A DNA stretch of 64,000 nt from Margaritifera margaritifera (taxonomy: Eukaryota; Mollusca; Bivalvia; Unionida; Margaritiferidae), in the NCBI GenBank assembly GCA_029931535.1, contig JAQPZY010001295.1:186001-250000 (forward strand), in the 5' to 3' direction. Made by a program: the position numbers and the translations under genes. Under the pieces are notes generated by a model. The model ran no database searches. It was not told the DNA's origin and saw only the letters and a list, made by a program, of their open reading frames with translations. This document shows, in pieces, positions 1,156 to 49,748 of the stretch. Positions within the stretch are counted from its first letter, which is position 1. Each line of letters opens with the position of its first letter.

Positions 1156-1157
<2 letters not shown>

Positions 1158-1218
<61 letters not shown>
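1158..1218. repeat. (TA)n microsatellite
   Basis: About 30 TA dinucleotides lie near the start of intron 1 of copy 1. Copy 2 also has a TA run near the start of its intron 1 (49781-49818). Confidence 0.95.
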
Positions 1219-1221
<3 letters not shown>

Positions 1222-1774
1222 TGTTGTAATCAATTGGCGATACCTCAGAAAGTTACAGTTCATTGCCTTCCCTTGGTACTCCACCTGGAGGACCACTCAA
1301 CTTCGCTATAAACAAACATTGCCTTAGTTTGCGACTAAGTTGTGTACGTTTTGTTTGTTCAAACTGTGTTTGAGAATATCAGATTCATATGTGTTTGTAC
1401 ACGTGGGTCCTAATAGCGCTGTCGACCTATACCAGCTATTATGCGTATTTTTTTGTAAGTTCTTTATGTAGTAGATGCAGTGTTAAGGGCTATTGGTAAT
1501 GCGAACAGGTGTTATATCGTGGGTGGGTTTGGTATAGCCAAATATCATGCACAGAACGTAATAAGTGAAATATGTTACATTATTTACTTAAAAAGCTGTC
1601 AATGGTTTGCGCAGGTACAACCTGTTTTGCAGAAAAGGTATATAAAGAGCTAGAATAGATAATTTGATAACGCATTTTACGCGCCATAGATAACGACATA
1701 CATATAGAATTGAGCGATTGCACTTATCGTGTTGCATAAAGACTAAACAAGATGATACGAGTGTTCATTTTCAT

Positions 1775-4858: not shown

Positions 4859-4870
4859 GTGACAAACATC

Positions 4871-7020
4871 ACGATGCAGTGTAATGGAAGTTGCTACATT
4901 GGTCTTCTTCGAGTCAATATAGTCCCATGACTGAAAGTTATATTACACGCATATCTGTAACCCGAAGGATATGTACTGTTAAATAATAACGAAATTCTGA
5001 AGCATTTGTTGACATTTATTCTATCAACTGAGTTATTCCATTTTTACAATTCACTTGCTTGTCATCTTTCGATTCACCGCATACTGTTCTGTAAATATTA
5101 ATCCGCCTAACTTGATATCTTCTCGTATTATCAATCGTTCCTTCTTTATAGTCGTCTAAAGATAATGAAAACTACGTTAAATTTGCTATATATCGTAAAT
5201 ATGCATTATATTTCTTCGTAATACTTTTTCAAAAGGTCGTACCGTCAGATCTGAGGATGTTACAATTGTCACTAATCTTTAATTCTAAACGAAGTGTAGC
5301 GTAATATGGTCATAGACGGTTAGTTTGACATGTATACATGTTTATGTCCTCATGTTCTTCTACAGCTGAATTTGCGGTGTGTCAATTAGGCCATGCATAG
5401 GTTAAGAGTTTTAACTTATTTTTCGAATTACTTATATACATATTGGTAGTGTTGTATTAACATTTTCTATATTTGTTTTAAATATTGATTGGTTTTGTTT
5501 TGTGTGTGACAATTGAAGACTTTGGGTCAGTCAGGCTGTATCGTGCTACAGTGTAGTCATTTGCAAAGACATGGGAGGGGGATAATGTTTCCACCATATC
5601 ACTAGATAAAAATGAAAAAAATATTCGCTGAAGTGAAAGTTGCCAACATTTTTGTGCATCGCATTTCAGATCATTGTAATAGAAAGCTGCATGTGTTTCA
5701 TCACTATAGTAAAAATGCTACTTTTCAAATAAAACGGTCTGTAGATATTACATAATGATCAACTCAGAATGTCTGAAAGACATCTCAGCTCACTCTACTT
5801 TAAGTAAGGGAGCCCAGAAGATAGTAGAGAGTATAGTGGCATTCCTATAACCTTGCATACCGAAAGTCATAAATGGGGACTAGCGAGCATTTTATGGTGT
5901 ATTTGCCATAGTTGCGGTTCAAAATGTAAATTGAATTCAGACACACATGCACATAGATAAACACGCGTACATTATGTACAACCAGAAATACGAATTAAGA
6001 ATATTAAAATAGTGTCAAGTGTTAGGGATCATCATAATGTTTGTCACTGACATTATTCTCATTTTTGTTATTTCCAACATACGTGTACAGTTGTGTCACT
6101 GTGTTTATCATAAAATTTTGTTTATGGCCGGCACAGGCCTCTATACATTTCATTACGATATACTTTCCATATTTTCAGGACTGACTAAAATGTCTTTTAG
6201 TTGCAAATAGTTTATGCAGAAAAACAGCGTACAAATTCCATATAGAGGTACACTGTTTCAAGGTCTATCGACAAAAAGGTGGGGGTTTTTTTTCGGTAAG
6301 TTATTTTTTCATAAACTCAATGCTAAGTAATACAGGATACTTTATTAAACGAAAAGGATATCACTATTAAACAAATTCATAACCATTTCTTGATATTCAG
6401 AGTTCCCCCCCCCCCCAACCACCCGTCCAGAATTGTGCATTACCAAATGCCCGTAATTAAGTAGAAGAAGACTGTTTATTTATCGGTAGTTGACTGACAG
6501 ACTGAACTTAAATTTACATCGCCCTATTTAATACTCGTCATATGAGTTGCCGACTGCAAACCCATCTGACGCATTACTGCGTGCACGGCACGCTATTTAA
6601 TTAAATGTCTGTTTGGTAGGCTGCACGGACTCGGCAAGGGAGGCGCCAAGCGAAACGAAAGTACTGGAACGCCACGAACGAACGTTATCAAATTCTACCC
6701 AGTTAGATAAGTCGGTCTATCCCTAACAACCAATTATGTGTTATTCACATGTTTAATTATGACAATCTTATAAGTTCCAAATTTCTTTATTTATGAAATG
6801 TATCCATTCAGATATTAATTTTGCCTACGTAGTGTACATAATTTTTCCAAAAATAAATTGTACCAATCCGTGAGTACAAGTTACTCGTTTGCATTTAGTA
6901 TCCCGCACATGTCTTCTCACTTCACAGTTATATTTTTAGACGGTGGTTCTAAATCAATCAAATTTGTGCTTGAATAGAGTATAATCGAAAAGGGTTTTCC
7001 AAAATTCCAAAAGGAAAACC
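4871..7020. other. Intron 1 DNA of copy 1, nothing recognised
   Basis: AT-rich sequence with only short random ORFs and a C12 run at 6405-6416. I see no motif supporting a gene or a complete repeat. Confidence 0.5.
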
Positions 7021-7022
7021 CC

Positions 7023-7620
7023 ATAAAGTCAGGCAATTTTGATCAGCGGGTTCCTGGCGACATCTCCTGGAGGTGGGTGCGGTGCGAACGAAAGGCTCAT
7101 CCCTCATCAGTAGTCAGCACCGCACTATGGATCTCGGTAATCGTCTCCAGTTTCCGCTGATCTTTTTCCAGCTAACATTGTTATCTCTGTCTGGCCCCAG
7201 GTCTCCTGTTGGTAACTTGCTCATTGGCTGCTCCGGTTTATTTGTTTGTTCAGGTAGCTTCGATGGGCAGGGGGGTCGACTGACTGGCTGAAAGCACGGC
7301 AGACTAGCCCCCTAGACTGGCAGTCTCCCCCCTCCCCCTTCATCTACAGTGACTCTATCCTACAACCACCTGGTTCCTTCCGCGGTTATACTGGACGTCC
7401 CCTTCCCTGCTACTGTTGGATTGCTGGCCTCTCCATTTCTACATGGTGTGTCTCTCCACACGCGAGATGGGTTGGTCTGCACCAGCTTTACACCAAGGTT
7501 CCACCTCGCTGAAGCGGTGTCGTCTCTGTCTTCCCTGACCTTCTCTCCTCCAAGACTGGCACCTGACTGTATATCGGTAGCTCATATGCATTCTACTTCA
7601 AAACAAGAAGAAGAAGTCTT
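7023..7620 (+). repeat. GC-rich island ending in (GAA)n, probable non-autonomous retroelement or LINE fragment
   Basis: About 600 bp stand out by base composition (many CTCC, CCCC and CTGG blocks) from the AT-rich intron around them, and end in AAGAAGAAGAAG. The sharp composition change and short simple-repeat tail look like a retroposed copy. No protein domain is recognisable in either strand. The assignment is inference. Confidence 0.4.
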
Positions 7621-8110
7621 GTTTCGCATTATTCAATTCTCTATATATTTGATGACACACTGTTTAGTAACGCTAGTAAGTCCAAGTTCATATCAACAGG
7701 GACTCCAGTTGTGAAGAATGCCCATGATGTTTGCATAATAAATAGTCTGTGCACTCTATAGTAGCTTAACAGTATACTCTCTAGTAGCATAACCAGTCTA
7801 GGAGCAGTATACACGTGCAGCTCGCTTCCAATAATTCCACCACGGCTTCTCATTCTTGCATAATTGTATGTTGTCTTTGTAAATTGCATAATCGAAAGCA
7901 TAATCTGCTATAGCTAATGATACATTCGCGTCGAAAATCCATTATTCTGTTCTGTTACCTACGTGCATTTCAGGTTGTGGAAAGGAGGCTAAGACACAAG
8001 TATGGGAGCTAGCTCGTACAAAATGTTGGAGTAAAACAGAAGATTTGCTTTTGGGGTGGGAGAGGAAGCTACTATCACCATACTGTTACAGTATCTTGTT
8101 ATTCGCTGCT
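7621..8110. other. Intron 1 DNA of copy 1, nothing recognised
   Basis: AT-rich sequence between the GC-rich island and the TA array. No coding or repeat signal seen. Confidence 0.4.
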
Positions 8111-8117
8111 TATATAT

Positions 8118-8183
<66 letters not shown>
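8110..8183. repeat. (TA)n microsatellite
   Basis: An almost pure TA array with one interruption, ending about 50 bp before exon 2 of copy 1. Its closeness to the acceptor may affect splicing or assembly. Confidence 0.95.
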
Positions 8184-8186
<3 letters not shown>

Positions 8187-8233
8187 TGTATATTGTTTTC
8201 ACAATATAATGATCATGTATTTGATCCTTACAG

Positions 8234-8467
8234 GCCTTTCAAGAATATGGGGGTAAAATAGATAGTGCAGAGGATTATTTTGGAAGACATGAACCTATTA
8301 CATTCGTCATGTCAAAATTTATCGAGGGACTCAAGAAAGACTGCCTCCATAAATTCATGGAGAGTAGAAATCTGACGATACCAGAAGCAGAAATTAGGTG
8401 GGTGCTAACTATTCCTGCGATCTGGAATGATGATGCAAAGGATGCCATGCGAAAATCAGCGGTCAAG
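8234..8467 (+). CDS. HSPA12-like copy 1, exon 2
   Basis: This exon has 78 codons between the acceptor TTACAG and donor GTAATG, both phase 0. It contains the connect-1 region with PAIWNDDAKDAMRKSAVK, conserved in HSPA12 ATPase domains. Intact, same length as exon 2 of copy 2. Confidence 0.85.
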
Positions 8468-9266
8468 GTAATGTCATTATTTCTATATAAGCTTCTAAAT
8501 TTGTTAAAGAATCCAAATAATAAATAAGATACCTAACGTCTGTGTGAGAAGTTCCGCAACAATAATTTGCATTGCTCAGAAAAAAAGTAAACAGTAACAT
8601 AGTAATTACAGACATTGTTAATGATGGGAAATTAAATGTTCTCAACAACAACTGATACATCTGAGGACAGAATACAATGTCAATACATGGGCTGAGATTT
8701 AGTTCGTATCACAAGATATGTACAGTAATAGAAATTTGAGATTAAAATGTCGCATGGATTCTGGCAGGCGATTATTTGTGCGCGATAGATAATATAGCAT
8801 CAATCATTCATGAGTCGTAATGTCGCCACATATTTCATGTAAATGTTCGAAAATTAAATTATTAATAAGAGCAAGAAAGCAAAACGATTTCACATAAATA
8901 TTTCCAGGACTTTAAAGGGTGATTTTTTTTTATCTTTGATGAAATGCTTTAAAATAATGAACAAAGTACAAAAAAGAGGACCTCATGAAAAATATTAGTA
9001 CATCGATGCTAATTTCACACGAAGTGCTGCTTTTGAAACAAGGCCCCTAATTTTCCTATTGCTACCCACAGGTATGTTCATAATATCTATATAGCAAGAG
9101 CACAAGCAAGTAAATCAATGTAATTTGTTTGATCAGCTGCTGACACATTTGATATTTTAAATTTACAAACTTTATTTGTACACCTTTCACGGACTTTGAC
9201 GAAATTACTTGTGAAAAAAATCTTCAGACATTAAAGCACCTTCTTGTCCGATACTTTGACCTGCAG
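8468..9266. other. Intron 2 of copy 1
   Basis: 799 bp of AT-rich intron. Nothing else recognised. Confidence 0.7.
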
Positions 9267-9411
9267 GCCGGAATACCAGATAAACAGCTGATCTTGGCCC
9301 TAGAGCCTGAGCCTGCTGCAGTACACAGTCTGTATCTCTCTCCCCAAGAAAAGGCCGGTATGGATGGACTGGGTGATGTCGGAGATAAATTCATGGTGGT
9401 GGATTTGGGAG
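9267..9411 (+). CDS. HSPA12-like copy 1, exon 3
   Basis: 145 bp from acceptor CTGCAG to donor GTTGGT, ending in phase 1. It encodes the LALEPE(P)A segment and the first half of the phosphate-2 loop (VVDLGG), completed by exon 4. Confidence 0.85.
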
Positions 9412-9699
9412 GTTGGTCTTTCTTTATAACGCTAACGTAGGTAGCAGTGTGATACGTGTAACCGTAAGTTGTTTCCTGGTAAGTATAAGAATAATTTATA
9501 AAGCGATAATTTGAGCTATTATATGGTTAATTTCTGGTTAATTGTACACGGAACACTGAAAATACACTATATAGAGTACATTGAGACTAAACAACCATGG
9601 ATATTACATTTTTACAGGTAGTTAGGGTTAAATTCTTTTTAAGCGAACTTCTGTTTCACGTGGATAAAGTTTATCGCTGTTTTTGCCTAAATAAATAAC

Positions 9700-9960
9700 T
9701 TCCTTTGGTGAGACCTCAGTTGCTGGTTAACATACAATATCGACCACCCCACCCCCGCCCTTGCTACCTACCAAAATTACATATGGTTCAACTGGATCAG
9801 TCCATGCTAAATGTCCAGCTCAAGGGCACAGAAACGCTGACCACGACAGAACTCGTACTCATGACCTCCATATCGTTTGTGCGCGCTGCCAACGACTCTC
9901 GACCCTGCCTCACAGTGGTACTTTGGGTAAATGCCGATGCAGTTTTTACAGGGTATGGGA
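9700..9960 (-). repeat. Possible SINE-like fragment with a tRNA-type promoter
   Basis: On the minus strand, a segment near 9835-9905 resembles a tRNA-derived head, with an A-box-like GTTGGCAGCGCGC followed by a B-box-like GAGTACGAGTTC. Reading frames through it give the RTHDL-type peptides often mistranslated from dispersed repeats in marine invertebrates. It lies in intron 3 of copy 1. No intact tRNA cloverleaf can be folded by eye. Confidence 0.3.
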
Positions 9961-10074
9961 TAATGCTCTTTGTGGTATATTTTGTTAATAAAAGCTTTCG
10001 TTTCGCAGTAGGTAGCAGTACCATATAGAATGTAATGTCAGAATCGATGTTGCACGTGCTTCTTTTTATTAAAG

Positions 10075-11138
10075 GTGGGACAGTAGATATAACTGCTGCA
10101 GAAGTAACAGATGATGGTTATCTGTTGCAGATCTACAGAGCGAACTTCGGACCTTGGGGCGGACAGAGAATAAATGACTCCTTTTCACAACTGGTTCGAG
10201 ATGTCTTTCAGAGTAAAGATGGGAATTCAATTTTTGACACATGCAAACAAGGTGATCTGTTGAAAATGGAGCAAGAGTTCGAACAACAAAAAGTGAATAT
10301 ACAAGAAGAAACATCGATCGGTGAAGAATGGGTCAAACTTGCTCTGCCAGCCAATATCTGGGATGAAGTGAAATACAATATCAGAGTCAATCCGACTAAG
10401 TATTCACAGTACTTCAAAATCCTGCAGAGTGGCTTAGTATTACAACCAGAAGTTATTGCGAGAGAGCTTTTCGGAGAGACCATAAACTTGATAGTAGGAC
10501 ATCTCCAGTCGATATTTCGCTAGACATCTATCCAGGGTATTAAGAAAATCGTCTTGGTGGGAGGTTTTGCGGAGGCACCCATCGTACGTGAAAAGATTCG
10601 GAAAGCTCTGCCACGAAGTCGCATATATATACCAAGTAATCCATTCTATGCTGTTTTGAAAGGAGCCGTGCTGTATGGTCATAATCCTGACATCTTCAAG
10701 AACAGGATCTCTCACATATGGGATAGAAGTACGCAAATGTTTCGATTCTACATTACATGAAGGAAAAGAACAGTGAAGCACAGTGATGGAACAATTTGGT
10801 GTGATAATGTATTTGATGTTCACGTCAAAAGAGATCAAGTTCTGTCTTTAAATGAAGAACAGCCTTCTAAAATATACAATCCATGGAATGAAAATGATAC
10901 ATCTATCGAATTAAAAATCTATCAATCTGTGTCACAAAATCCAACATATGTCGATGAAAAAGGACGCAAGAAGCTGGGTATTCTGGTCGTTGAAATGCCA
11001 AAAAAGACAGGGGATGGAAAGAAGGAGGCTGAAGTCACCATGATTTATGGAGGGACGGAACTCCGTGTCAAAGGAGTCGATAAAGCCACAAGAAAAGAGT
11101 TCAAGACATCCATTGTTTACGAAAGATATGGATCCTGA
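10075..11138 (+). pseudogene. HSPA12-like copy 1, exon 4 (broken)
   Basis: The last exon starts after a CTTTTTATTAAAG acceptor and matches copy 2 through the ATPase domain (GGPWGGQR-type block, here GPWGGQRINDSF, and VLVGGFAEAPIV) to the C-terminal YGGTELRVKGVD. It carries TAG at 10521 and TGA at 10758, and is out of frame between about 10718 and 10772. No AATAAA lies close to the normal TGA at 11136, unlike copy 2. Confidence 0.85.
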
Positions 11139-13479: not shown

Positions 13480-14530
13480 AATGAAGATTATAAATAATCT
13501 TATAGTTAGAACTTTTTAGATATGTCTGATAGTATCTAAATGGTGAATCCAAATGTTTCCTTTCATAGACGTCCCATTTCAGAATTGATATTGAATAATG
13601 CCCCTTTGTACAGTTATTGTACAAAGTTTTTAAGATTATATAATGTTATAATATCAGATTTTAAAATTAAGAATGTGAAATTCTTTTTCATTATTTTGAT
13701 CAATAAATAGTTCTAAAGTAGCACCATAGAAAGGATTGTGCATTTTTAAATTGCACAATATATTTTATTGATATTTTTGTAAGTTTTCTACAATTAGTAA
13801 ATACAATTTTAAAAAATCATTTCCATGGTTATGGGTTAGGCAATTTTTATTATATATACAGAGTAGGGAAATGCAGTTGTTTTGTATTTAATCATATATC
13901 ATGTATATATTATTGTGGATATTTTTTTGTATCTTTTTTGGTGTAAATTTGTAGGCAAAATACTTTAAATACTTTAAAGCGGATTCATCCAAACTAAACC
14001 AGTTATTGAAGCATGTGTTTCTGACCCACATCAATAACAATAGAAGTCACCAAATAGAATACATTTATCAATCAAGTTCATATAAAATCTTAGAATTAAA
14101 CCTATTGGATAGATATTATCCAAACGGTGAATCCAATATGTCTATTTTAACAGACCTTCCATTTTCAAATTAACAATATCAATTGCCTTAGATGAAAAAT
14201 CTTGTAAATTATGGAGACCATCGAGATTAAAAAGATGCATTGATAAAGTTATTTATGTCAAATCTATGTTTGTTCATGCGTTTTGATACTTGCTTACGGG
14301 TTTGTCCAACATATTTCTTTTTCCAAGTTATCAAATAAATAACATTAGATGTTGACAATTAGTATCATAACGCATTTTAAAAGTTTCTTTGGTATTACTG
14401 GTACTGAAATATGTATTTTTATTAATGAAATAACAGTGCGAACATCTGGGTCTATTATATTTAATTGATGAACCATGACTTTTAAACATTTTAACAACTC
14501 TAGCTCACTTAATATTGAGATATGCTGAAA
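13480..14530 (-). mobile_element. Penelope-like element remains (GIY-YIG endonuclease end), two degenerate pieces
   Basis: Read on the minus strand, 14090-14520 gives a Cys pair (RCSHC, about 14433-14447), then after a frameshift a GIY-YIG-like core (VIYLI, then KKYVGQTRK at about 14299-14313, then RMNKHR), and further on a degraded stretch ending WIHRL. This order is typical of the C-terminal GIY-YIG domain of Penelope-like retroelements. A second, more decayed copy of the terminal part lies near 13500-13640, sharing the TGGATTCACC-like block. The reverse transcriptase is not seen. Many stops and frameshifts make this an old fossil. Confidence 0.5.
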
Positions 14531-14649
14531 TTGTGAAATCTGAGTCAACATGCCCTACTCTCCAGTTATATTTTTCGTACTTAATAGACATACTTATATT
14601 TCATCTTGCCTTCTATTATTATTTATGCTTATGTACATATGTTAAGTTC

Positions 14650-17100
14650 TTCCATTCAGCTTTATTTCATCACAGGGTTCCATGTGGAATATGGATAGAC
14701 TTAGTTTAAACAATATTGTATTTGCTAAATTATGCAAAAGGGGTCGGCTACACGTTCTCACAACATTAAATAAGCCCTTCTCCATACAACTATAGTGGTA
14801 CAAATTAATCAAACATGACAAGCGGCAGAAGAAAGGAAAATAACCAAAGAAAAACAAACAAACAAAAAAATAAAATAAAAAAAACATATAAAAAAAGAAG
14901 AAGAAGAACAACAAGTTAGGTGTGCTGATAATTAAAAGATAAAGCTTCGAAAAAGGAAAAAAGAAGAGATATCCAAGGCAAGTAAACAATGATGTTACCA
15001 AACTTTGGAAGGAATGCATTTAGTATGTAATGCACCTACATCACTATCAATTGGTCATTATACAGTCTGAGAAAGAGTAATATTACTAATAACAAGAATC
15101 CCTTTATATTTAGAATCTAAGGAAGAAGCATTAGCTAAAGCGCCCCGTATCCTTAATGTACTTTTAAAAGAACTTACAGACATTCAAAGTTTGCTCAGTT
15201 GCAATTTCAGGTGTGCCAAATTGAAGAGTGTTTGTAAAGATTGGTACTGGCATTTCTTTAAGACTAAGCATTAGATTTTGCCTTTGAACTGTGTATTGAG
15301 TGCAAATAAAAAGATATTGATATGCACTTTCTGCTTCTGTCCCACAGTGTCATAAGGTCATTGTCATACTGATCTTTTTGAGGTCTCTACATTTGTTTCT
15401 GATCAAAGTATGAATAATAGAGTATTAGCAATAACCAGAACGATAATAATAAGGAACGATACTGCTTAGCGGGGTAATATACTTTTTAAATTTTAAGAAA
15501 TCGCTTTCAACTTTGACATTTTCAGGTAGGCTATTCCAGATGAGAATAGAAGAGTTACGGAAAGATTTGTTTAGTTATTTCAAGTCTGGCATTTACTATA
15601 GAGAAGTTTTATCGATTACGTAAATTGTATCTTGACGTTTCTCCCACCAAATGAGGAAGGAGTTCATTTAAATAACTTGGCGAATCATTATAAATAATTA
15701 TATGAAAAGTGCAGAGTTTGTGAGATTTTCTTCTTTCTGAGAGCAGAGGCCAGCCGCATTCCTATTAAATATTGCGTGCGTGGGCATTTCTGGTTAGACC
15801 CGTGACTATCCTAGCAGCCTCTAACTGAAATCTCTCTAATCTATCTGAGTCTGCTTTTGAACATCCATCTCAAATGACATCTGCATATTCTAATATAGGC
15901 CTAATGTATGATAAGTAAAATATATCTAAGAATTTTCAACTCAGATTGTATTTGAGGGATCTTAAAATATTTAGCAATTTAGATGCTTTTTAAAGTATAT
16001 TTTCAATATGTAGACTCCAAGTGCATGTATTACTAAGTGTAAAGCCCGAATGTTTATGATTGTCAACAAAAGCAAGTGATTCGTTTTGGAACTTCAAGTT
16101 GGGAAAGAGTGGGTTATTCTTTTTGCTGGAAACATGACTTCGCTTTTTGTTGGGTTGAAGCTTACTAACCATTGATTTGACCAGTCATGTAGAGTTTGAG
16201 TATATATTGGATATCTTGCATACTTCTATAAGCGTAAGAGAGAGAACTGTCGTCGGCAAAAGGTCTGTTGAGACTAAGGAGATCATCAGCAATATCATTG
16301 ATATATGCACGAAACAATAACGGTCCTAGAACCGAACCCTGAGGCACCCCAACTGAAACAGACTGAATTGTAGATTATGTGGTTTTCACAACAACAGTTT
16401 GTGTTCTATCGGAGAGATAGTTGGTGAATCAATTAATCAGATCTGACTCTGTTTCATAGCTTTTTAGTTTACGGATATGACCTTTATGCCAAACTCGGTC
16501 GAATGCCTTCAATACATCGCAAAATATAACTCTTCTCCAAAATCGAGTGCTTCGCAAATACTATGATATATATCTATCAGTTGGTAAACGGTTGAGTGAT
16601 TTGGGAGAAAGCCTGATTGATATTTGTAAATAAAATCATTTTCATGCAAGAAATTTTATACAAGTTTGACAATGACCTTTTCCATGATTTTGCTAAGTAA
16701 AGAAATGAGTTTGTAAATGGTGGGATCATTTTTGCTATCTTTCTTGTGTATTGGTAATTCTACCGCTTTTCCTAAAGAACGGGAAATATTTTCTCAATAA
16801 GAATATTGCTGAATAAAATACATAGAGGTCCCATAATTGCTAGTGCTGAACCCTTTAGAAGATCGTGACTTATCAAAGCCACAAGTTTTATTTAGAGGAA
16901 TTGTTCTTATAAAGTCTAGAATTTCCTGTTCATTTATTACAATCATTAACGGATTCTTAATTGTGCGAAGTGGTAATTTCGGAAGAGTTACATTGGTATC
17001 ATTAATTTGAGAGACAGATGTGAAAAACGAATTTAAACACAAGGCCTTCTCTAAATCGGAGAATGCAGTGTTTAATGTGCCATCATATTTATACACTTAC
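14650..17100 (-). mobile_element. Old LINE remnant (RT), minus strand, in duplication copy 1
   Basis: Minus-strand fragments line up as a decayed non-LTR RT. An N-terminal block (EKALCLNSFFTSV, about 17050) is followed by MPQGSVLGPLLF (about 16347), the catalytic box as RPFADDSSL (about 16260) and SLAFVDNHKHSGFTLS (about 16080). Further fragments with SYIRPILEYADV and LEAARIVTGLTR (about 15800-15930) and a 3'UTR follow, ending near an AATAAA (minus strand) at about 14660. Numerous stops and frame changes show age. The left edge of the 4.5-kb duplication (14709) cuts through this 3'UTR, so the second copy lacks the terminal ~60 bp. Confidence 0.7.
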
Positions 17101-18300
17101 AAAGCAACATACATAATAGTTACCTATCCATTCTGTAATTACATTTTTCCTTTTATTTTTGCTTCCGTGATACTCTTCTTTATGCGGTTATAAAACTTTC
17201 TCGTATGTGCTACCAAATATATGACTTTTCTGTCCAACACCAAACAGCGCCGTCACTTCATATATAAAATAGTATGTTAAAAAATACCCTTAAAAACAAA
17301 CCACGCAACAGAAAATTATATGCAACAAACAAAATAAATTCCTTCCTTTTCACACTTGTCAAGCATATTAACCTCAGTTACAGCTTTGCTACATGCCATT
17401 ACTCTGGCGTCCTCTCTTGGTACTTTTCTCTAGTACCAATCTTATTTCTTGTTTACTTAATAAAAGGAGCAGTACTTTGCCGGTGCATCCAGAGATATCT
17501 ACGATCGCCGCTGATTACATGCAATGTAATAATTGAGACACCCCATAAAATTGCGCTGTAAGCAGTTTATTATATGGTTCCAGTATGACATTTAATGATT
17601 ATATTACCTAAAATCATCTGAGTTGGCAAGATGAATACGGTCCTATTGTGAGTGCGAGCTTCATCGTTGATAAATATATTTCCGCCGACCCTAGTGTGGT
17701 GCTCGTATTGAAGATACTCGATTCGAAAAACTATGTCGATTAGTCAAAGCGTAGACGAAACCCAGAGCTTTAAACTTTAAAAGAAATTTTGAGATTTAAA
17801 TTGCTAGTTTTGTTTCATTTTTGGCGTCGTAATATCGCCCTGATTGTATAGTTCTGCGATTTGGTTTCATTTAGGTGAATCTAAACTTTTTAATTAATTA
17901 ATCACAAGCTATATGTGTCGACTTATTTCGCTAAGTTTATGACTCTCATAATGGTAAAAAATATGTTGATAATATAAAAGAAACAATTATTTTATCCCTC
18001 TCAAGATATATTTGAATATTTTTTTGAATATCAAATGACTCGGAGAAATGATTAAAATATATACGCAAAGAGAGACTGAATGGATACGTGGTTATATCAA
18101 AGACCAAAGGATAATTTATGATGCAAAACCCAGAAGATATTATTGAAGTTAACAGAAGGGAAATTATATTAGCAAAACTATAACAAAAGCCTAAATAAGT
18201 CAGCGAAAATAATAAGTGATCAACTGAAGATATTCGAGGACATTTACATATTTTTTGAGCGGTCATATAGTGTTAACATTTTCATCCGTCACCTCATTAA
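17100..18300. other. Duplicated segment, no gene recognised
   Basis: AT-rich DNA with open frames of 95 codons (17274-17561, plus) and 106 codons (17946-18266, minus) that show no domain. Both recur unchanged in the second copy because of the duplication, not because of selection. Confidence 0.5.
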
Positions 18301-18850
18301 TTGTGTTTCCGCTCAATAACCTTTAAATGCCTTTTGACTTTGAACTATACCATTCTACTGCATCATGATTCCGTTCCTGGTTAATACATTTAAGATGGAC
18401 TTCATGGATTCAAATAAAATTTGATATGAGGTTTTACATCAAGAAGACCTAGGTCAAGTTAAATTCTCACCACTTTAAAACAAAATATTAATGGACTCAT
18501 GGTCCCTGTTTGACTTTGAACTTTTCACATTCATTGGATTATAACTTTGTTTCCACTCAATACCTTTTATAGGGCTTCATGAATTCAAACCAAATTTGGT
18601 ATGAAACTTTACACTTAGAAGATCTAGGTCAAATGTGATTTTCACTATGTTTCAACACAATTTGACTGTGTTATTGCCCCTGTTTGGCATGCATATTGTC
18701 ATTCAATGACATCATTATCTTCTTTCTGCTTAATTCAAGAACTTAATGAAATCAAAATTGGGTTTGACATTACACTACAAAGACCAAATTCAATTTCGAT
18801 TTTTACTTATTTCTAACAAAATATTTTACAAAGATTTGTCTCCTGTGCGT
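18300..18850 (+). repeat. Imperfect ~170-bp tandem repeat, three units
   Basis: Phrases such as TTCATGGATTCAAA, GAAGACCTAGGTCAA and CTGTTTGACTTTGAA recur. The ATG inside the first phrase falls at 18404, 18579 and 18746, giving periods of 175 and 167 bp. The units are diverged, so this is an old satellite-like block or repeat-rich element. Its duplicate is at 28714-29264. Confidence 0.6.
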
Positions 18851-19229
18851 TTACTTTATTTTGTTCTACAATGCTATCAAGCTAGCAGGGGCATCTGTAT
18901 TGTATTGTATAAAGCAGAGATGATTTATTTATTGATGTCAAGTTTAGAAATTTATTTAAACTAAAAATGTATCTTCTACACGAGTTCTTGTCTAAAACGC
19001 CACTGTCGGCCTTTTTACAATGCTGAACAATGAATTTACACCTTTCGCTGTTGCAATATGCGCACGTTTTGAACGACTCGTGTTTAGTTCTAATATGGCT
19101 GGTTCAAGTTGCGGCTATGATTTGTCGGCACCGAGTTCCAGTCTCTAAGATCAATTCTGACTGGATTAATTAGATAATGATAGTTACATCGGCCAGGTAA
19201 GTAAACTGACGCATCGCTCTGAAAACTGT

Positions 19230-21158
19230 GTGCAATCTGAAAGCTATAGCGATATTAACGGGTGTTTAATACATGAATTAAGTCCAGGAAGATTTCCATT
19301 GCTAAACGCTGCAAAGAATTTCATGTCAGTGAATACCAGTGATGGATATCAGTCGTCTTCTCCATGTGCTCGTGGATCACCCACATCATCCCCTGCTAGC
19401 CACCATTGCCTGCACCTACTCCCGACGTCCAACAGCACGGATGATGCTCCCTTCTCTCAAAATTATACACAAGATGATATTGCGTACTATGATCTTGATT
19501 CTCGTCCTGAGGATACTGATAACCCGCAAGTATCACAGATTCCTAATCAGGAATATATAGACATGTTGGACAAATTCTTTAATGGAGAGCCAGCGGGTGT
19601 ATATGTGGGTAAGCTCGTAAACTTTACAAACAACAAAGAAAACCTTATAAACTGGTACAGGACTATTTTAATAAGTCGGGCGCAATTGTTGCCAAACTGT
19701 CCACATGGTGCGCCAATTATTAGACGCAATTCAACAAAATTCAGTGCATCATATAAATATGCAAAGGATTGTTACAATTGTTACAATTTACAGCTTTTTA
19801 TTCATGGAGAACAACCCGATGTTATAGAGGAATTATTCAATGGTCGGATGACACGTAGTCACAACAGATTAGAAAATGTCTCCACACATGAAAACTACTC
19901 ACTGAATAATAGAGTGGAAACAGCAGAACTTAAAGCAATCGTACACAGCTGTAAGAGTGACTTGAACTCAGTGCAACACGAACTTAATAAAATAATAGGT
20001 CATTTGAACAATCGGATTGGCATCCTTGAAAAGCAAAACAAAGAACTCTCTACCGACAACATACATCTTAAGCATGCCTTACTCAGACTAGAGACCTTAG
20101 TAACAACTAAGTTTCAGCAATATGACAGCACAATGAAACACTCTCTTAATACAAATGTATCTTCTGTTGTTACCGGTAAAATTTCAGATGGCAATCACAG
20201 TGCAAATCAGACAGCACGTGACCATCTACAAAATCAACACACGGGAAGCAACGGGCAACAGCAATCTCAACACCAAATGAATTCAGACCCAGTAGCATCA
20301 TCTACAAGGTCAACTCCTAACTCACTACCACGTGTTCAAGTACAACCAGTGTGTAATGTTCCACCAGAGGATATTACGATTAACCCCACACGAGGCGATC
20401 TCCAGACGTCAACATGCATGAGATACTCTGATGCCCTGAATGCGACTCTGAGGCCATCAGAGACAATCAACTCAGTCACACAAACTCGCCGCACAGTATC
20501 TACTTCTGATGATGATGAAAACACTTCTCCCAAACGGAGTGCACCTTCTCTCAGCATAATCTCAAGTACTGATATTGCAAATGAAGCACATGATCAGCGG
20601 ACTCAGTCTCTTGCCATTGATGGACAATCTCAAACAAGAGCAAGTTTAAAGGATATTAATGTATGTATGAAAACCAATCATGTACAAACAAACAAAATGT
20701 CAATCCAAGAAAAACTATCTAACTTAGCGCATGGAAATAATTCTTCGAATAATTCTTCAAGTAATTCAGCATCCCCAAACACAGTAAAATCTCACCCACT
20801 ATCAACAACAACAGGTCACAATCTATTAGACCAGGAGGAACAAAACTTTGAAAATCCCGGTGAAGTTTTCATAGGGGTATATAGGAAAAGAAATGTCAGC
20901 TATTTTATTTGGGGAATTGATAATTCATCCACTAGGGCGGGCATCTATGCTCATTTCCAAAAAAATGGCGCAAAAATAAGCTCTCTGGCCTTGTACCGCA
21001 GCAAATCTGGAACCTTATATGCACGTATAAATGTTAATTCACAATATGCACAAATAGTAGAATCGGAAGATTTCTCCTGGCCCGATGGTATCATTTGCAC
21101 TCACTGGAAATCTCCTGCTAAAAGGGTCAAATCACCTGTTAAAAACTACAATAATTGA
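19230..21158 (+). CDS. LINE ORF1 protein
   Basis: ORF1 proteins of two-ORF LINEs bind the element RNA as a chaperone. This frame is open from 19209. The first ATG in frame is at 19323, giving 612 residues; 19230 is only a GTG. Seen in order: a Ser/Pro-rich N-terminus; a region with CPHG and CYNCY cysteines (about residues 150-185 of the open frame); a predicted coiled coil at about 225-300 with Leu/Ile heptads; a long Ser/Thr/Asn/Gln-rich linker; and a C-terminal globular part of about 85 residues with alternating beta/alpha character, ending DFSWPDGIICTHW. The last part is RRM-like in length and pattern, which is inference. No RNA-binding zinc knuckle of the CCHC type is seen in ORF1. It lies 43 bp upstream of the ORF2 open frame. 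Confidence 0.75.
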   Translation: MQSESYSDINGCLIHELSPGRFPLLNAAKNFMSVNTSDGYQSSSPCARGSPTSSPASHHCLHLLPTSNSTDDAPFSQNYTQDDIAYYDLDSRPEDTDNPQVSQIPNQEYIDMLDKFFNGEPAGVYVGKLVNFTNNKENLINWYRTILISRAQLLPNCPHGAPIIRRNSTKFSASYKYAKDCYNCYNLQLFIHGEQPDVIEELFNGRMTRSHNRLENVSTHENYSLNNRVETAELKAIVHSCKSDLNSVQHELNKIIGHLNNRIGILEKQNKELSTDNIHLKHALLRLETLVTTKFQQYDSTMKHSLNTNVSSVVTGKISDGNHSANQTARDHLQNQHTGSNGQQQSQHQMNSDPVASSTRSTPNSLPRVQVQPVCNVPPEDITINPTRGDLQTSTCMRYSDALNATLRPSETINSVTQTRRTVSTSDDDENTSPKRSAPSLSIISSTDIANEAHDQRTQSLAIDGQSQTRASLKDINVCMKTNHVQTNKMSIQEKLSNLAHGNNSSNNSSSNSASPNTVKSHPLSTTTGHNLLDQEEQNFENPGEVFIGVYRKRNVSYFIWGIDNSSTRAGIYAHFQKNGAKISSLALYRSKSGTLYARINVNSQYAQIVESEDFSWPDGIICTHWKSPAKRVKSPVKNYNN

Positions 21159-21261
21159 TAACATATTCTGTTTTATTATATCTCACTAACCTATTCCTTA
21201 TATGATTTTTGAAACTACAATGTCAATTTTATTTCTTTACATATGTAAACTAAGTGTAACA

Positions 21262-24200
21262 ATGGCTTTAAATTTACTTTTATGGAATGTCAGAGGCATA
21301 ATGTCATCGACAATATGTCTCGGCAATTTATTGGATCAGTATGACTGTGACATTGCATTCATAAATGAACACAAGCTTCGTCCACAAAATGCATCGTTTA
21401 TGGATTCCATACATTCCAAATATGCAACTTTCACCTGTTGCCAGGAGACATCAGATCCCTTCGGGCCAATCAATTGTGGCAAATCAGGGGTCTCAATTAT
21501 GTTCAAAAAACAACTGGAACAAAAAATTGTACCAATGGAAAACATAAACGACAGAATTATAGGTGCAAAGCTTGTTGGTCTCTCTCACAAACCTCTATAC
21601 TTAATTTGTGTCTACATGCCCTCAGAGAACGATATTAAGCACTACCGTGAAATAATTGAGATTCTTGATGACTTGTACGAGCACCTCTCGGAAGAGGGGC
21701 ATGTCATTATTGCAGGTGACATGAACGCAAGTTTGATAGACTGCTCTAGAGTTAACGCCCGTAAATGTAAAGAATTAAAGGACTTCGTGGGCCGAAATCA
21801 GATAAAGGCGATAAATACTGCACCAAACTGTATCGGTCCAAAATATTCATATGCCCCTTTTCAAACCATGCTCGATTACATATTGACTGACAGCATCGTT
21901 AGTTCCAATGTTAAACGTTGTGAAATAATCCAGGAAGGTAAAATTTCTACAACATCAGACCACTTACCTGTATTCTGTTCAGTTCCGATCCAAAACAATA
22001 TAATCCCAAAGGTATCGAAACTGCACGACCTAACGGCATGGCACAAAGTCGGCAACAACGAGATTTGTCACTATCAAAACGCACTAGCACGTAACTTACA
22101 AGACCGCCTAACAAGAGAGATTAACGGTCCGCACGAAATAGACCGACTGTGTACTGATATAACTGAATGCATGCTACAAGCTGCACGAGACGCGCTTCCC
22201 ATTAAGCGTTTTAACCCACACACAAAGCCATACTGGAATGAAACATTAAAGCGGAGTCATAAAATAGAACGTGAAGCACGCATAGTCTGGGTGAAACAAG
22301 GCAGACCAAGAGGCTTGCAGCACGAAACATATGCTCTATATAAAAAAGCAAAGCGTGAATTCAGGAACGCTCAACGAATAGCTAGTGAATCTTTTCTGAA
22401 TAACTCCCTGAATGAAATTCAAGAAGCGGCCGAATGCGATTTACGCCTTTTTTGGCATCTAATTAAAAAGAGCAAACCGAACAAACACAAATCTTGTGTT
22501 GAAATTTTTTATGGTGGTAAGACCTATTCTGACCCATCTTCGGTAGCTGGTGCTTTTGCAGATTTTTTTTTCTGAATTGTACACACCGAAAGATTATGAT
22601 ATTTATGACAAAGACTTTTATAACTCAGTAGAGAAAACAATCTGTGATCTCAAACATTATTCTAAGAAGCACGTACATAGACAAGAAACTTTAGATGATG
22701 AAATCTCTGATCAAGAACTATGCAGCGCACTTCGTACGTTAAAAAAGTCGAAAGCTCCAAGTCATGATCACCTTCAAAATGAGCACCTTATCTATGGTGG
22801 TCCTCAGCTAAATAAAACAATCTTAAAATTGTTCAACTCGATATTAAAGCATGAATATATACCAAGTACATGGAGAAGAGGTCTTACCGTGCCTATCTAC
22901 AAAGGTAATGGGAAAAGCAGAGCTGATCCCGATAGTTATCGGCCAATATCCTTGTTACCAGTGCTGTACAAATTATTTGAAAAAATTATGCAAGCAAAGA
23001 TTAATAACTTCTTGGTGACGAAGGAAACCATATTCCCTAATCCACAACAACGAGGCTTTCAAAAGAATCTAAGCTGCCTCACGGCCTCTTTTAATCTTCA
23101 AGAGGTCATTAATTATAACTCTGACTGCGGTAGCCCTACCTATGCTGCCTTTCTCGATACTCAAAAAGCCTTTGACACCGTTTGGCACGCTGCTCTACTC
23201 TTGAAACTATATAATTTGGGAATTCGGGGGAAAATCTGGAGAATAATAGGGAATACATATCAAAGTGTACAAAGTGCAGTCGTAGTTAGCAAATACCAGT
23301 CTAGATGGTTCGATATCAAGCGAGGCGTTAGACAAGGAGGCGTCCTGTCCTCATTTTTGTATCTGGTATTTATAGACGAGTTGCTACAGCAATTAGTAAA
23401 AAGCACACTGGGATGTAAAATTGGAAGTTTAGAGTGCTGCTGCCCTACGCTTGCAGATGATCTCACGTGCCTGTCAAATTCTCCAGATAACTTAGCTAAA
23501 ATGCTAGAAATTGTTCTCAAATATTCTAAAAAATGGAACTACAAACTAAACTCTACAAAGTCATATATTATAATATTTGGCAAGAAAAGAAATTCTAACT
23601 ATAAGCTGTCTCTAACACTTGACGAAGAAATAATTACTGAAACTGACTCCGTCACTCACCTAGGAATACTACAGGATAAATCACGTCGTTCCATCAACCG
23701 CACCCGCAACGCTTGTAGAAGAGCAAGGCAGGTCTTTTTTAGTCTTGCAAACGTTGGGATGGGTACCCCAAACCTAAACCCCAAAACATCCGCGAGTTTA
23801 TATAAGAAAATCGTGATTCCAACCTTACTATATGGCTGCGAACTTTGGAATGAGCTTCAAAAATGCGATCTACTGGAGCTCAACAAATTGCAACATTTTA
23901 CAGCAAAAAGAATTCAGGGATTTTCTGAACAAACGCGGTCAGATATGTGTGAGTCAATGCTGGGACTAATAAGAATCACAACCGAAATTGATCGACGTAA
24001 ACTTCTCTTCCTAGGTAAACTCTGCACCCTGTCCAATAACACCATCTCCAAACAAATATTCCTCATACGTCTTCACATGTATTTTGATAGCACCCAATCT
24101 GTACAATCTGGTTTTATTCCAGATATTTGGAATTTACTTCAGAAGTATGAGCTTACAGATTTCCTCCTGAACTTCATTAATCAATCAATTTTCCCTAACA

Positions 24201-24703
24201 AATCTCAGTGGAAACAATTGGTCAACATGACTTTACTTGAAAAGGAAGAGACTACCTGGCGCGACAGAATCAATAGACATCCTGATTTTTCTAGATTCCA
24301 ACACTTACAAACACAAATCCGCCCTTCCACTCTGTACTATATTGCGAGGAATAATTATGAACGCAAATTAACCAGGTTTATAGCATCCCTGTGGGTATTA
24401 AAGCCAGGCCATGACGTTACTCACTGTCAAAAATGTGGTCAACAGTATACCGACCTCCTTCAGCATGTGGTCACATCATGTATATTAACAAGACAAATTG
24501 CCGACGACTTTCACTGGTATGTGTTGGACAAGTTTGGACTTGAACTCCACATAGAACTTACCCAAAGTAACGACGAATCACAGTTGCTAAAACTGTTAAG
24601 AACTGACATTGAAAGTAGACTTGACAAAACACGATTTCACCATTTTCAGATCTGTTCATTCCAATTTCTCGTCCTTGTATCACGAGTCTACTTCATAGCC
24701 TGA
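21262..24703 (+). CDS. LINE ORF2: AP endonuclease + reverse transcriptase (one frameshift)
   Basis: The frame opens at 21202, but the ATG at 21262 directly precedes the endonuclease start LNLLLWNVRG, so I prefer it. Endonuclease motifs in the first ~240 residues are WNVRG, NEHKL (catalytic Glu), IIAGDMNAS, MLDYIL and TTSDHLPV (catalytic His). The RT shows KAPSHDHLQNE, YRPISLLPVLYK, DTQKAFDTVWH (first catalytic Asp), GVRQGGVLSS and the catalytic box TLADDLTCL, where Leu replaces the usual Tyr/Phe (bases 23450-23461). A C-terminal CCHC knuckle begins at 24425 (CQKCGQ, then H and C). At 22563-22571 a run of nine Ts shifts the frame: the first part stops at 22575 and the rest continues in the +1 frame. 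An eight-T run would restore one frame of about 1,147 codons. Confidence 0.9.
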
Positions 24704-24835
24704 AGATCAAACATGTGTCAAAAGCAAAAATTCCCAATTCAGCTCCTGCCAAAACTCTCTACCTATATGACCTTACTTTAAAAACAAAGTCATTATCATT
24801 AATGGATCAGTACCGTAATAAAAAGTTTATTTTTT

Positions 24836-24837
<2 letters not shown>

Positions 24838-24873
<36 letters not shown>

Positions 24874-24882
24874 GGGGGGGGG
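24838..24882 (+). repeat. T35-G10 homopolymer tract in LINE 3'UTR
   Basis: Thirty-five Ts are followed immediately by ten Gs, about 130 bp downstream of the ORF2 stop. Such a tract is prone to slippage and to sequencing error. Confidence 0.95.
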
Positions 24883-25100
24883 TTCCCTATAGATTTATGT
24901 ACAAAGATTATGTGCTATTTTGTATGTTTGCATGTATTTCCTAACTATTGATATTGTATTTGTTTCTTCCTCGTCTGTATTAGTGTAATATGTATCACTG
25001 ACTTTCTGGAATGTTTTCCGTAATCTTCAATGTAAATTGTTAAATGTATCTCTCTCTGTTCTATTTTCTATGTTTGTAAATGAACTCTCCTTATGGAGGA

Positions 25101-25122
25101 AATAAAGATTGATTGATTGATT
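25101..25122 (+). terminator. LINE 3' terminus: AATAAA plus (GATT)n
   Basis: An AATAAA hexamer is followed by GATT repeats that run straight into the duplicated flank at 25123. Short tandem repeats at the 3' end are typical of LINEs without poly(A) tails and mark the point where reverse transcription was primed. Confidence 0.8.
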
Positions 25123-27514
25123 AACAATATTGTATTTGCTAAATTATGCAAAAGGGGTCGGCTACACGTTCTCACAACATTAAATAAGCCCTTCTCCATA
25201 CAACTATAGTGGTACAAATTAATCAAACATGACAAGCGGCAGAAGAAAGGAAAATAACCAAAGAAAAACAAACAAACAAAAAAATAAAATAAAAAAAACA
25301 TATAAAAAAAGAAGAAGAAGAACAACAAGTTAGGTGTGCTGATAATTAAAAGATAAAGCTTCGAAAAAGGAAAAAAGAAGAGATATCCAAGGCAAGTAAA
25401 CAATGATGTTACCAAACTTTGGAAGGAATGCATTTAGTATGTAATGCACCTACATCACTATCAATTGGTCATTATACAGTCTGAGAAAGAGTAATATTAC
25501 TAATAACAAGAATCCCTTTATATTTAGAATCTAAGGAAGAAGCATTAGCTAAAGCGCCCCGTATCCTTAATGTACTTTTAAAAGAACTTACAGACATTCA
25601 AAGTTTGCTCAGTTGCAATTTCAGGTGTGCCAAATTGAAGAGTGTTTGTAAAGATTGGTACTGGCATTTCTTTAAGACTAAGCATTAGATTTTGCCTTTG
25701 AACTGTGTATTGAGTGCAAATAAAAAGATATTGATATGCACTTTCTGCTTCTGTCCCACAGTGTCATAAGGTCATTGTCATACTGATCTTTTTGAGGTCT
25801 CTACATTTGTTTCTGATCAAAGTATGAATAATAGAGTATTAGCAATAACCAGAACGATAATAATAAGGAACGATACTGCTTAGCGGGGTAATATACTTTT
25901 TAAATTTTAAGAAATCGCTTTCAACTTTGACATTTTCAGGTAGGCTATTCCAGATGAGAATAGAAGAGTTACGGAAAGATTTGTTTAGTTATTTCAAGTC
26001 TGGCATTTACTATAGAGAAGTTTTATCGATTACGTAAATTGTATCTTGACGTTTCTCCCACCAAATGAGGAAGGAGTTCATTTAAATAACTTGGCGAATC
26101 ATTATAAATAATTATATGAAAAGTGCAGAGTTTGTGAGATTTTCTTCTTTCTGAGAGCAGAGGCCAGCCGCATTCCTATTAAATATTGCGTGCGTGGGCA
26201 TTTCTGGTTAGACCCGTGACTATCCTAGCAGCCTCTAACTGAAATCTCTCTAATCTATCTGAGTCTGCTTTTGAACATCCATCTCAAATGACATCTGCAT
26301 ATTCTAATATAGGCCTAATGTATGATAAGTAAAATATATCTAAGAATTTTCAACTCAGATTGTATTTGAGGGATCTTAAAATATTTAGCAATTTAGATGC
26401 TTTTTAAAGTATATTTTCAATATGTAGACTCCAAGTGCATGTATTACTAAGTGTAAAGCCCGAATGTTTATGATTGTCAACAAAAGCAAGTGATTCGTTT
26501 TGGAACTTCAAGTTGGGAAAGAGTGGGTTATTCTTTTTGCTGGAAACATGACTTCGCTTTTTGTTGGGTTGAAGCTTACTAACCATTGATTTGACCAGTC
26601 ATGTAGAGTTTGAGTATATATTGGATATCTTGCATACTTCTATAAGCGTAAGAGAGAGAACTGTCGTCGGCAAAAGGTCTGTTGAGACTAAGGAGATCAT
26701 CAGCAATATCATTGATATATGCACGAAACAATAACGGTCCTAGAACCGAACCCTGAGGCACCCCAACTGAAACAGACTGAATTGTAGATTATGTGGTTTT
26801 CACAACAACAGTTTGTGTTCTATCGGAGAGATAGTTGGTGAATCAATTAATCAGATCTGACTCTGTTTCATAGCTTTTTAGTTTACGGATATGACCTTTA
26901 TGCCAAACTCGGTCGAATGCCTTCAATACATCGCAAAATATAACTCTTCTCCAAAATCGAGTGCTTCGCAAATACTATGATATATATCTATCAGTTGGTA
27001 AACGGTTGAGTGATTTGGGAGAAAGCCTGATTGATATTTGTAAATAAAATCATTTTCATGCAAGAAATTTTATACAAGTTTGACAATGACCTTTTCCATG
27101 ATTTTGCTAAGTAAAGAAATGAGTTTGTAAATGGTGGGATCATTTTTGCTATCTTTCTTGTGTATTGGTAATTCTACCGCTTTTCCTAAAGAACGGGAAA
27201 TATTTTCTCAATAAGAATATTGCTGAATAAAATACATAGAGGTCCCATAATTGCTAGTGCTGAACCCTTTAGAAGATCGTGACTTATCAAAGCCACAAGT
27301 TTTATTTAGAGGAATTGTTCTTATAAAGTCTAGAATTTCCTGTTCATTTATTACAATCATTAACGGATTCTTAATTGTGCGAAGTGGTAATTTCGGAAGA
27401 GTTACATTGGTATCATTAATTTGAGAGACAGATGTGAAAAACGAATTTAAACACAAGGCCTTCTCTAAATCGGAGAATGCAGTGTTTAATGTGCCATCAT
27501 ATTTATACACTTAC
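25123..27514 (-). mobile_element. Old LINE remnant (RT), minus strand, in duplication copy 2
   Basis: Same decayed minus-strand RT as at 14650-17100, with MPQGSVLGPLLF at about 26761 and the FADD box at about 26674. Its extreme 3' end is missing because the younger LINE meets the duplicate at 25123. Confidence 0.7.
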
Positions 27515-28714
27515 AAAGCAACATACATAATAGTTACCTATCCATTCTGTAATTACATTTTTCCTTTTATTTTTGCTTCCGTGATACTCTTCTTTATGCG
27601 GTTATAAAACTTTCTCGTATGTGCTACCAAATATATGACTTTTCTGTCCAACACCAAACAGCGCCGTCACTTCATATATAAAATAGTATGTTAAAAAATA
27701 CCCTTAAAAACAAACCACGCAACAGAAAATTATATGCAACAAACAAAATAAATTCCTTCCTTTTCACACTTGTCAAGCATATTAACCTCAGTTACAGCTT
27801 TGCTACATGCCATTACTCTGGCGTCCTCTCTTGGTACTTTTCTCTAGTACCAATCTTATTTCTTGTTTACTTAATAAAAGGAGCAGTACTTTGCCGGTGC
27901 ATCCAGAGATATCTACGATCGCCGCTGATTACATGCAATGTAATAATTGAGACACCCCATAAAATTGCGCTGTAAGCAGTTTATTATATGGTTCCAGTAT
28001 GACATTTAATGATTATATTACCTAAAATCATCTGAGTTGGCAAGATGAATACGGTCCTATTGTGAGTGCGAGCTTCATCGTTGATAAATATATTTCCGCC
28101 GACCCTAGTGTGGTGCTCGTATTGAAGATACTCGATTCGAAAAACTATGTCGATTAGTCAAAGCGTAGACGAAACCCAGAGCTTTAAACTTTAAAAGAAA
28201 TTTTGAGATTTAAATTGCTAGTTTTGTTTCATTTTTGGCGTCGTAATATCGCCCTGATTGTATAGTTCTGCGATTTGGTTTCATTTAGGTGAATCTAAAC
28301 TTTTTAATTAATTAATCACAAGCTATATGTGTCGACTTATTTCGCTAAGTTTATGACTCTCATAATGGTAAAAAATATGTTGATAATATAAAAGAAACAA
28401 TTATTTTATCCCTCTCAAGATATATTTGAATATTTTTTTGAATATCAAATGACTCGGAGAAATGATTAAAATATATACGCAAAGAGAGACTGAATGGATA
28501 CGTGGTTATATCAAAGACCAAAGGATAATTTATGATGCAAAACCCAGAAGATATTATTGAAGTTAACAGAAGGGAAATTATATTAGCAAAACTATAACAA
28601 AAGCCTAAATAAGTCAGCGAAAATAATAAGTGATCAACTGAAGATATTCGAGGACATTTACATATTTTTTGAGCGGTCATATAGTGTTAACATTTTCATC
28701 CGTCACCTCATTAA
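27514..28714. other. Duplicated segment, no gene recognised
   Basis: Second copy of 17100-18300. Contains the same two domain-less frames (27688-27975 plus, 28360-28680 minus). Confidence 0.5.
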
Positions 28715-29264
28715 TTGTGTTTCCGCTCAATAACCTTTAAATGCCTTTTGACTTTGAACTATACCATTCTACTGCATCATGATTCCGTTCCTGGTTAATA
28801 CATTTAAGATGGACTTCATGGATTCAAATAAAATTTGATATGAGGTTTTACATCAAGAAGACCTAGGTCAAGTTAAATTCTCACCACTTTAAAACAAAAT
28901 ATTAATGGACTCATGGTCCCTGTTTGACTTTGAACTTTTCACATTCATTGGATTATAACTTTGTTTCCACTCAATACCTTTTATAGGGCTTCATGAATTC
29001 AAACCAAATTTGGTATGAAACTTTACACTTAGAAGATCTAGGTCAAATGTGATTTTCACTATGTTTCAACACAATTTGACTGTGTTATTGCCCCTGTTTG
29101 GCATGCATATTGTCATTCAATGACATCATTATCTTCTTTCTGCTTAATTCAAGAACTTAATGAAATCAAAATTGGGTTTGACATTACACTACAAAGACCA
29201 AATTCAATTTCGATTTTTACTTATTTCTAACAAAATATTTTACAAAGATTTGTCTCCTGTGCGT
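28714..29264 (+). repeat. Imperfect ~170-bp tandem repeat, second copy
   Basis: Same three-unit block as at 18300-18850, carried along in the 4.5-kb duplication. Confidence 0.6.
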
Positions 29265-29629
29265 TTACTTTATTTTGTTCTACAATGCTATCAAGCTAGC
29301 AGGGGCATCTGTATTGTATTGTATAAAGCAGAGATGATTTATTTATTGATGTCAAGTTTAGAAATTTATTTAAACTAAAAATGTATCTTCTACACGAGTT
29401 CTTGTCTAAAACGCCACTGTCGGCCTTTTTACAATGCTGAACAATGAATTTACACCTTTCGCTGTTGCAATATGCGCACGTTTTGAACGACTCGTGTTTA
29501 GTTCTAATATGGCTGGTTCAAGTTGCGGCTATGATTTGTCGGCACCGAGTTCCAGTCTCTAAGATCAATTCTGACTGGATTAATTAGATAATGATAGTTA
29601 CATCGGCCAGGTAAGTAAACTTCTGTGCT

Positions 29630-49729: not shown

Positions 49730-49748
49730 GTCAGTGATGCATTTACAG

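Follow-up and report, generated by a model that had tools for sequence, protein, structure and literature searches.

Kilobase direct duplications adjoining insertions of a recently active LINE family in Margaritifera margaritifera

The target-site duplications (TSDs) made by L1, a long interspersed nuclear element (LINE), usually measure 5-30 bp (PMC5223499). Much larger ones are reported in the same paper for L1 in human cells deficient in nucleotide excision repair (NER), where target duplications range from 5 bp to 5.3 kb with a median of 1,495 bp, and where they exceed 100 bp in 78.6 % of inserts in XPD-deficient and 91.3 % in XPC-deficient cells. Its authors suggest that a distant, unrelated nick is used, or ends exposed in replication or repair. 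At a still larger scale, one L1 event in a tumour lies at a 22.6-Mb tandem duplication, modelled as the capture of a sister-chromatid break downstream of the first nick (PMC7058536). Here we describe a stretch of 64,000 nucleotides from Margaritifera margaritifera (hereafter the window; C1152:186001-250000, loci being named by contig as C-numbers) in which a LINE lies between two copies of a 4,499-bp segment. The LINE belongs to a recently active family which, as sequence comparison across the assembly suggests, probably often duplicates hundreds to thousands of host base pairs in the same event as its insertion. Large target duplications made by LINEs have been reported in repair-deficient cells and in tumours; as something that a natural family does habitually in the germline they look new, and no natural LINE with kilobase target duplications was found in the open-licence literature, judged by titles and the beginnings of abstracts.

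Like L1 in NER-deficient cells, the family described here shows LINE insertion together with direct duplications of up to several kilobases (292-6,087 bp). Unlike that system, an engineered L1 in repair-deficient human cells (PMC5223499), it is a different LINE, a natural family in the germline, and XPA and XPC domains are present in its host genome. The likeness to the L1-mediated tumour duplication lies in a single LINE event at a tandem-duplication junction and in the model of cDNA capture on the sister chromatid. The change in PMC7058536 is a somatic one of 22.6 Mb, described as one of several aberrant outcomes, whereas the mussel duplications span 0.3-6 kb, are germline and are frequent in the family. 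The anatomy is otherwise that of an ordinary LINE TSD: one copy lies before the 5′ end and the other after the 3′ tail, 5′ truncation varies and the tail is a simple repeat. The median length is about 100 times that of the ordinary L1 TSD (PMC5223499, as quoted above). Database relatives of the bivalve type (31-48 % identity), for example in Pinctada, Mytilus and Magallana, have the same order of endonuclease and reverse transcriptase where both are present.

In the window, base-by-base comparison bears out the preliminary description of a direct duplication that is free of differences over 4,499 bp, here called X (14709-19207 and 25123-29621). The match stops at the first mismatching position on either side, bases 14708 and 19208, and window self-comparisons reveal no second pair of this kind. 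The 5,915 bp separating the copies are, as had also been described, one LINE comprising ORF1 (ORF, open reading frame), an APE-type endonuclease, the reverse transcriptase domain RVT_1 and a terminal AATAAA(GATT)4 directly against the second copy. Position 19208 does not hold as base 1 of the element: ten other full-length copies have at least 27 bp of common sequence 5′ of it, so the window copy is slightly 5′-truncated. A further claim is not supported, namely that the 3′ untranslated region (UTR) of an old LINE runs unbroken across the left edge of the first copy. The best 40 of 945 candidate matches to 14509-14908 comprise two that represent the locus itself and 38 relatives of the left repeat, and none of these 38 extends past 14703, 5 bp short of the edge.

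Recurrence of the duplication in the LINE family

The assembly searched comprises 2,453,371,941 bases in 1,696 contigs. Long copies of the LINE were taken as the best 26 of 833 candidates, which are 98-100 % identical and fall at 23 loci, three of them holding tandem pairs; the counts that follow describe these best-matching copies. A direct duplication adjoins both LINE ends at 15 of the 23 loci, none was found at five, and three are not scorable. Both the sequence and the length of X vary from locus to locus. At the 14 loci where it could be measured X has a median length of 3,036 bp and a range of 292-6,087 bp, outside the usual TSD range of 5-30 bp; the 15th lies in a local tandem array. 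The claim that the LINE inserted and the duplication arose together, arranged like a giant TSD, is thus supported well beyond the window.

For ten other full-length copies about 9.5 kb of flank was read per side and the 5′ flank was compared with the 3′ flank. To be scored as duplicated, a locus had to show a direct repeat, 250 bp or longer and 95 % or more identical, that ended near the LINE 5′ end and began at the tail. Together with the window this gave a duplication at 8 of 11 loci, with X measuring 4,499 bp in the window (C1152), 2,330 bp at C1242, 1,163 bp at C937, 3,173 bp at C1402, 1,310 bp at C1471, 4,096 bp at C600 and 3,626 bp at C130; at C54 it spans about 2,389 bp at 96.8 % identity within the local tandem array. 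No duplication was found within 9.5 kb of the LINE at C372 and C678, and C107, which lies in an old array, could not be scored. As a control, 5′ flanks compared with 3′ flanks from different loci gave 0 of 110 duplications, and arbitrary points inside the flanks gave 2 of 110.

The remaining 15 copies (12 loci) were assessed from short junction reads, three longer 3′ flanks and a genome search with twelve 5′ flanks (best 40 of 3,390 candidates). Copies truncated at the 5′ end are duplicated as well, at C413 (2,900 bp) and C822 (2,738 bp), and the set includes the shortest duplication, 292 bp at C1196, and one of 1,254 bp at C329. At the three tandem-pair loci one 5′ flank is present three times, in the order X-LINE-X-LINE-X. 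Here X measures about 6.09 kb at C523, 3.60 kb at C851 and 6.08 kb at C1404. The paired LINEs share their 5′ flanks with 0-1 differences over 297-365 bp and begin the same 3′ flank, identical at C523 and with repeat-length differences at C851 and C1404. Two loci, C57 and C234, lie within satellites and were not scored. A short duplication was sought at the five loci where no large one was found, and the only candidate was one of 8 bp abutting both ends at C913, a length also reached in 1 of 20 mismatched pairs.

A second sample was drawn from 3′ ends. The best 40 of 464 candidates included 20 at new places, of which 14 were examined; C1280, C806, C36, C287, C1383 and C1287 were left out, their flanks seeming repetitive or of low complexity. 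A search for second copies of the 14 flanks (best 40 of 1,863 candidates) found a direct one upstream in five. The distances, which include the element remnant, are 5.72 kb (C1102), 8.46 kb (C558), 7.45 kb (C1218), 3.04 kb (C551) and 0.66 kb (C364), the last being a weak match in a dispersed repeat that crowds the match list, so that less identical second copies could be missed at other loci. The duplication is rarer in this sample, which is probably made up mostly of truncated copies.

The two parts of the structure appear to be of similar age. Across the seven fully compared loci, which total 20,197 bp, 7 substitutions separate the X copies (0.035 %), with small gaps at C1242, C937 and C600. 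Among eight LINE copies, compared over about 5.88 kb each, 13 substitutions are private to single copies (0.028 %). Insertion and duplication thus look about equally young, as one event would give.

The LINE family and the features of the window

Eight copies of the LINE differ by 3-12 substitutions over about 5.88 kb, and six of the eight retain ORF2 as a single frame of 1,170 amino acids, which is broken in the window copy and at C1471. ORF2 holds both an endonuclease (PF03372) and a reverse transcriptase (PF00078), which places the element among APE-type non-LTR (long terminal repeat) retrotransposons. No long terminal repeats are present: the flanking X is specific to each locus, and none of the 110 cross-locus pairs shares X in an abutting position. 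Since X changes from locus to locus, an LTR-like or composite-transposon identity for it was ruled out. The tail is (GATT)n with variable n, and 5′ truncation is variable too (truncated copies at C413, C822, C851 and C1404). The coordinates of the window features are collected in Table 1.

Three full-length copies, at C107, C1242 and C600, begin farther upstream, and the upstream parts at C107 and C1242 consist of tandem repeats of about 45 bp that resemble 5′ promoter monomers. Other copies begin near CAAGATGGC, which resembles a YY1 site. In the window the 3′ UTR of the LINE contains 35 T followed by 10 G in a row (24838-24882), odd for an animal transcript. The reverse transcriptase motif usually written YADD is LADD in the window LINE (22547-24700); LADD is the commonest form among the 120 listed relatives of the LINE, with LADD alone in 59. 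By eye, a minisatellite or satellite lies at the LINE tail in 9 of 43 loci (C1471, C600, C1343, C57, C234, C1280, C806, C36 and C287), and at C54 the tail meets a kilobase tandem array. A target preference of the family for tandem repeats is possible.

Table 1. Positions of the LINE, the duplicated segment and their junctions in the window
Feature	Position	Strand	Basis or remark
L/X junction, putative first-nick site (geometry of target-primed reverse transcription)	14708..14709	.	L ends GTTTA, X starts AACAAT; in copy 2 the tail meets AACAAT
X copy 1, duplicated host segment on the left, adjoining the LINE 5′ end	14709..19207	+	4,499 bp, 0 differences from copy 2
LINE insertion, slightly 5′-truncated, family recently active	19208..25122	+	family copies 98-100 % identical in the assembly
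LINE ORF1, 611 amino acids, without Pfam match	19323..21155	+	ORF and Pfam
LINE ORF2, endonuclease part (Exo_endo_phos), frame broken downstream in the window copy	21262..22572	+	PF03372, E 3.3e-11
LINE ORF2, reverse transcriptase part (RVT_1)	22547..24700	+	PF00078, E 7.1e-34
(GATT)4 tail, LINE 3′ end, directly joined to X copy 2	25107..25122	+	sequence
X copy 2, duplicated host segment on the right	25123..29621	+	identity with copy 1
X/R junction, putative point of second-end capture	29621..29622	.	GTAAACT ends copy 1 before the LINE and ends copy 2 before TCTGTG

Elsewhere in the window, two HSP70-12-like (HSPA12) gene copies lie in the same orientation on either side of the insertion region (692-11138 and 49430-61418). 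Their exon DNA is 74-82 % alike, and an HSP70-12-like exon has its best match in Potamilus streckersoni (73 %) and the next in Sinanodonta woodiana (57 %), both freshwater mussels. A tandem array of 41-bp units occupies 58082-58450, its inner units 96-98 % alike.

Proposed mechanism

At the loci with a duplication the LINE 5′ end adjoins the end of X and the (GATT)n 3′ end adjoins the start of a second X, which differs from locus to locus, and the orientation of all junctions read is consistent with target-primed reverse transcription (TPRT). The endonuclease would nick one strand at the left edge of X, a placement chosen because the tail joins the start of X, and the LINE RNA would be reverse-transcribed from this nick as in ordinary TPRT. 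The departure would come at completion: the free cDNA end may be joined to a DNA 3′ end 0.3-6 kb downstream rather than to the opposite strand a few bases away. The product would be L-X-LINE-X-R, where L and R are the unduplicated left and right flanks, and the X-LINE-X-LINE-X arrangement may arise later through unequal recombination between X copies.

Two sources of the captured end come into question. In the one that we think somewhat probable, it is the end of a nascent strand, or one from repair synthesis, either on the same duplex or on the sister chromatid, reached by template switch or synthesis-dependent repair. In the other, to which we give a distinctly smaller chance, it is a second nick, with kilobases of DNA melted between the two. 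The replication or repair-synthesis route is the more likely of the two because a distant strand end arises there without such melting. The final anatomy is identical for the competing routes, sister-chromatid bridging included. Of the mechanism offered in the preliminary description, the coupling of duplication to insertion is supported, while nicks 4.5 kb apart are not established, replication- or repair-coupled capture giving the same anatomy.

Competing explanations and significance

Several observations weigh against a duplication made together with the insertion, or against any finer account of it. Within the best 40 of 3,390 candidates no second X copy was found for C591, C1343, C913, C372 and C678; since the flank at C913 is a dispersed repeat whose matches fill much of the list, older or less identical second copies could be missed. 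The lists of best 40 candidates may more generally let older duplications escape. Several targets lie in tandem repeats (C54, C1471, C600), where alignment is ambiguous. In the second sample, 7 of the 14 flanks have no second copy in the search (C1469, C183, C1446, C1425, C709, C37 and C94). The 3′ flank at C173 has a near-identical second copy that is inverted and lies 5.6 kb away (C173:5707984-5708131), which may represent a variant outcome of this event involving the sister chromatid or an inversion, and at C1546 the second copy lies 97 kb downstream. Finally, no junction feature separates the routes: the element has 1 bp in common with the right flank at C822, 2 bp at C130 and 4 bp at C413, and none at others.

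Of the rival explanations a host cause survives best, though we consider it unlikely: defective NER, or some other host step, would make LINE insertions take up a distant second end. The size range in NER-deficient human cells (PMC5223499, figures given above) is the same as the one seen here. The assembly, however, contains an XPA_C match (E 2.0e-21) and two Rad4/XPC-domain matches above cut-off; domain presence is no proof of function, and at the level of domains a host without NER is unsupported. The control was another LINE family represented in the window (53700-56870, (ATT)n tail), with copies taken from the best 40 of 3,355 candidates, many of which are 93-96 % identical. Six 5′-truncated control copies have no duplication of useful length at their junctions within roughly 300 bp of 3′ flank (a 30-bp partial match occurs at C178). 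Searched genome-wide, the control 5′ flanks have no adjacent second copy at any of three loci (C807, C279 and C1354), the sole other match of the C1354 flank lying 186 kb away at 86 %. No other young LINE suited as a control turned up among four long ORFs of the fetched flanks run against Pfam, of which two encode LTR-type polyproteins, one encodes an IBR/RING protein and the fourth has no match. Because the control family lacks adjacent duplications at the three loci searched and the XPA and XPC domains are present, the data point to a cause that lies in the element more than in the host, the control being a small and older sample.

An assembly artefact, in which a heterozygous LINE insertion is mis-stitched so that its flank appears twice, strikes us as less likely still. 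The assembly is probably built from PacBio CLR data, and PMC10189783 gives a library insert of 14.3 kb, shorter than the 14.9-kb X-LINE-X unit of the window. It also states a low heterozygosity of about 0.163 %, so alleles could look alike, and the X copies of the window show zero differences. Against this, the joins fall at the element's own ends in seven junction-resolved loci, with differing lengths; the X copies differ by 1-3 substitutions at three of the seven fully compared loci and by small gaps at three; the pattern is missing from the control LINE family at all three loci searched; and the 292-bp case at C1196 fits easily inside one long read.

Two further readings are highly improbable. 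Two insertions of the same family kilobases apart on homologues, followed by unequal recombination within the LINE, could give X-LINE-X, and in the window TA/AAC is common to both edges of X; this motif is not at both edges in the other six junction-resolved loci, and nearby same-orientation pairs would be needed at about 15 loci in a family that is thinly spread over 2.45 Gb (best 26 of 833 candidates, and best 40 of 464 for the 3′ end). A preference for junctions of pre-existing tandem duplications, with which the tail minisatellites at 9 of 43 loci noted by eye would agree, would require each insertion to hit the precise junction of a kilobase tandem pair, and the X copies are about as young as the LINE copies.

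Duplication in the same event as insertion thus remains the reading that we prefer. We put forward more tentatively, at a little under even confidence, that this LINE lineage encodes its own completion route, whereby DNA synthesis in replication or repair captures the cDNA as far as kilobases beyond the nick. A kilobase tandem duplication would then be the normal product, and the family would keep producing segmental duplications in the germline, a part of which would expand further. Second-end completion is a long-standing open step of TPRT, and this natural family offers many sequenced products of it. It also suggests how retrotransposition can lead directly to duplications of kilobases and to local triplications, structural variation that is otherwise credited to repair or recombination. 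In this mussel, the act of insertion itself seems to duplicate stretches of the genome.

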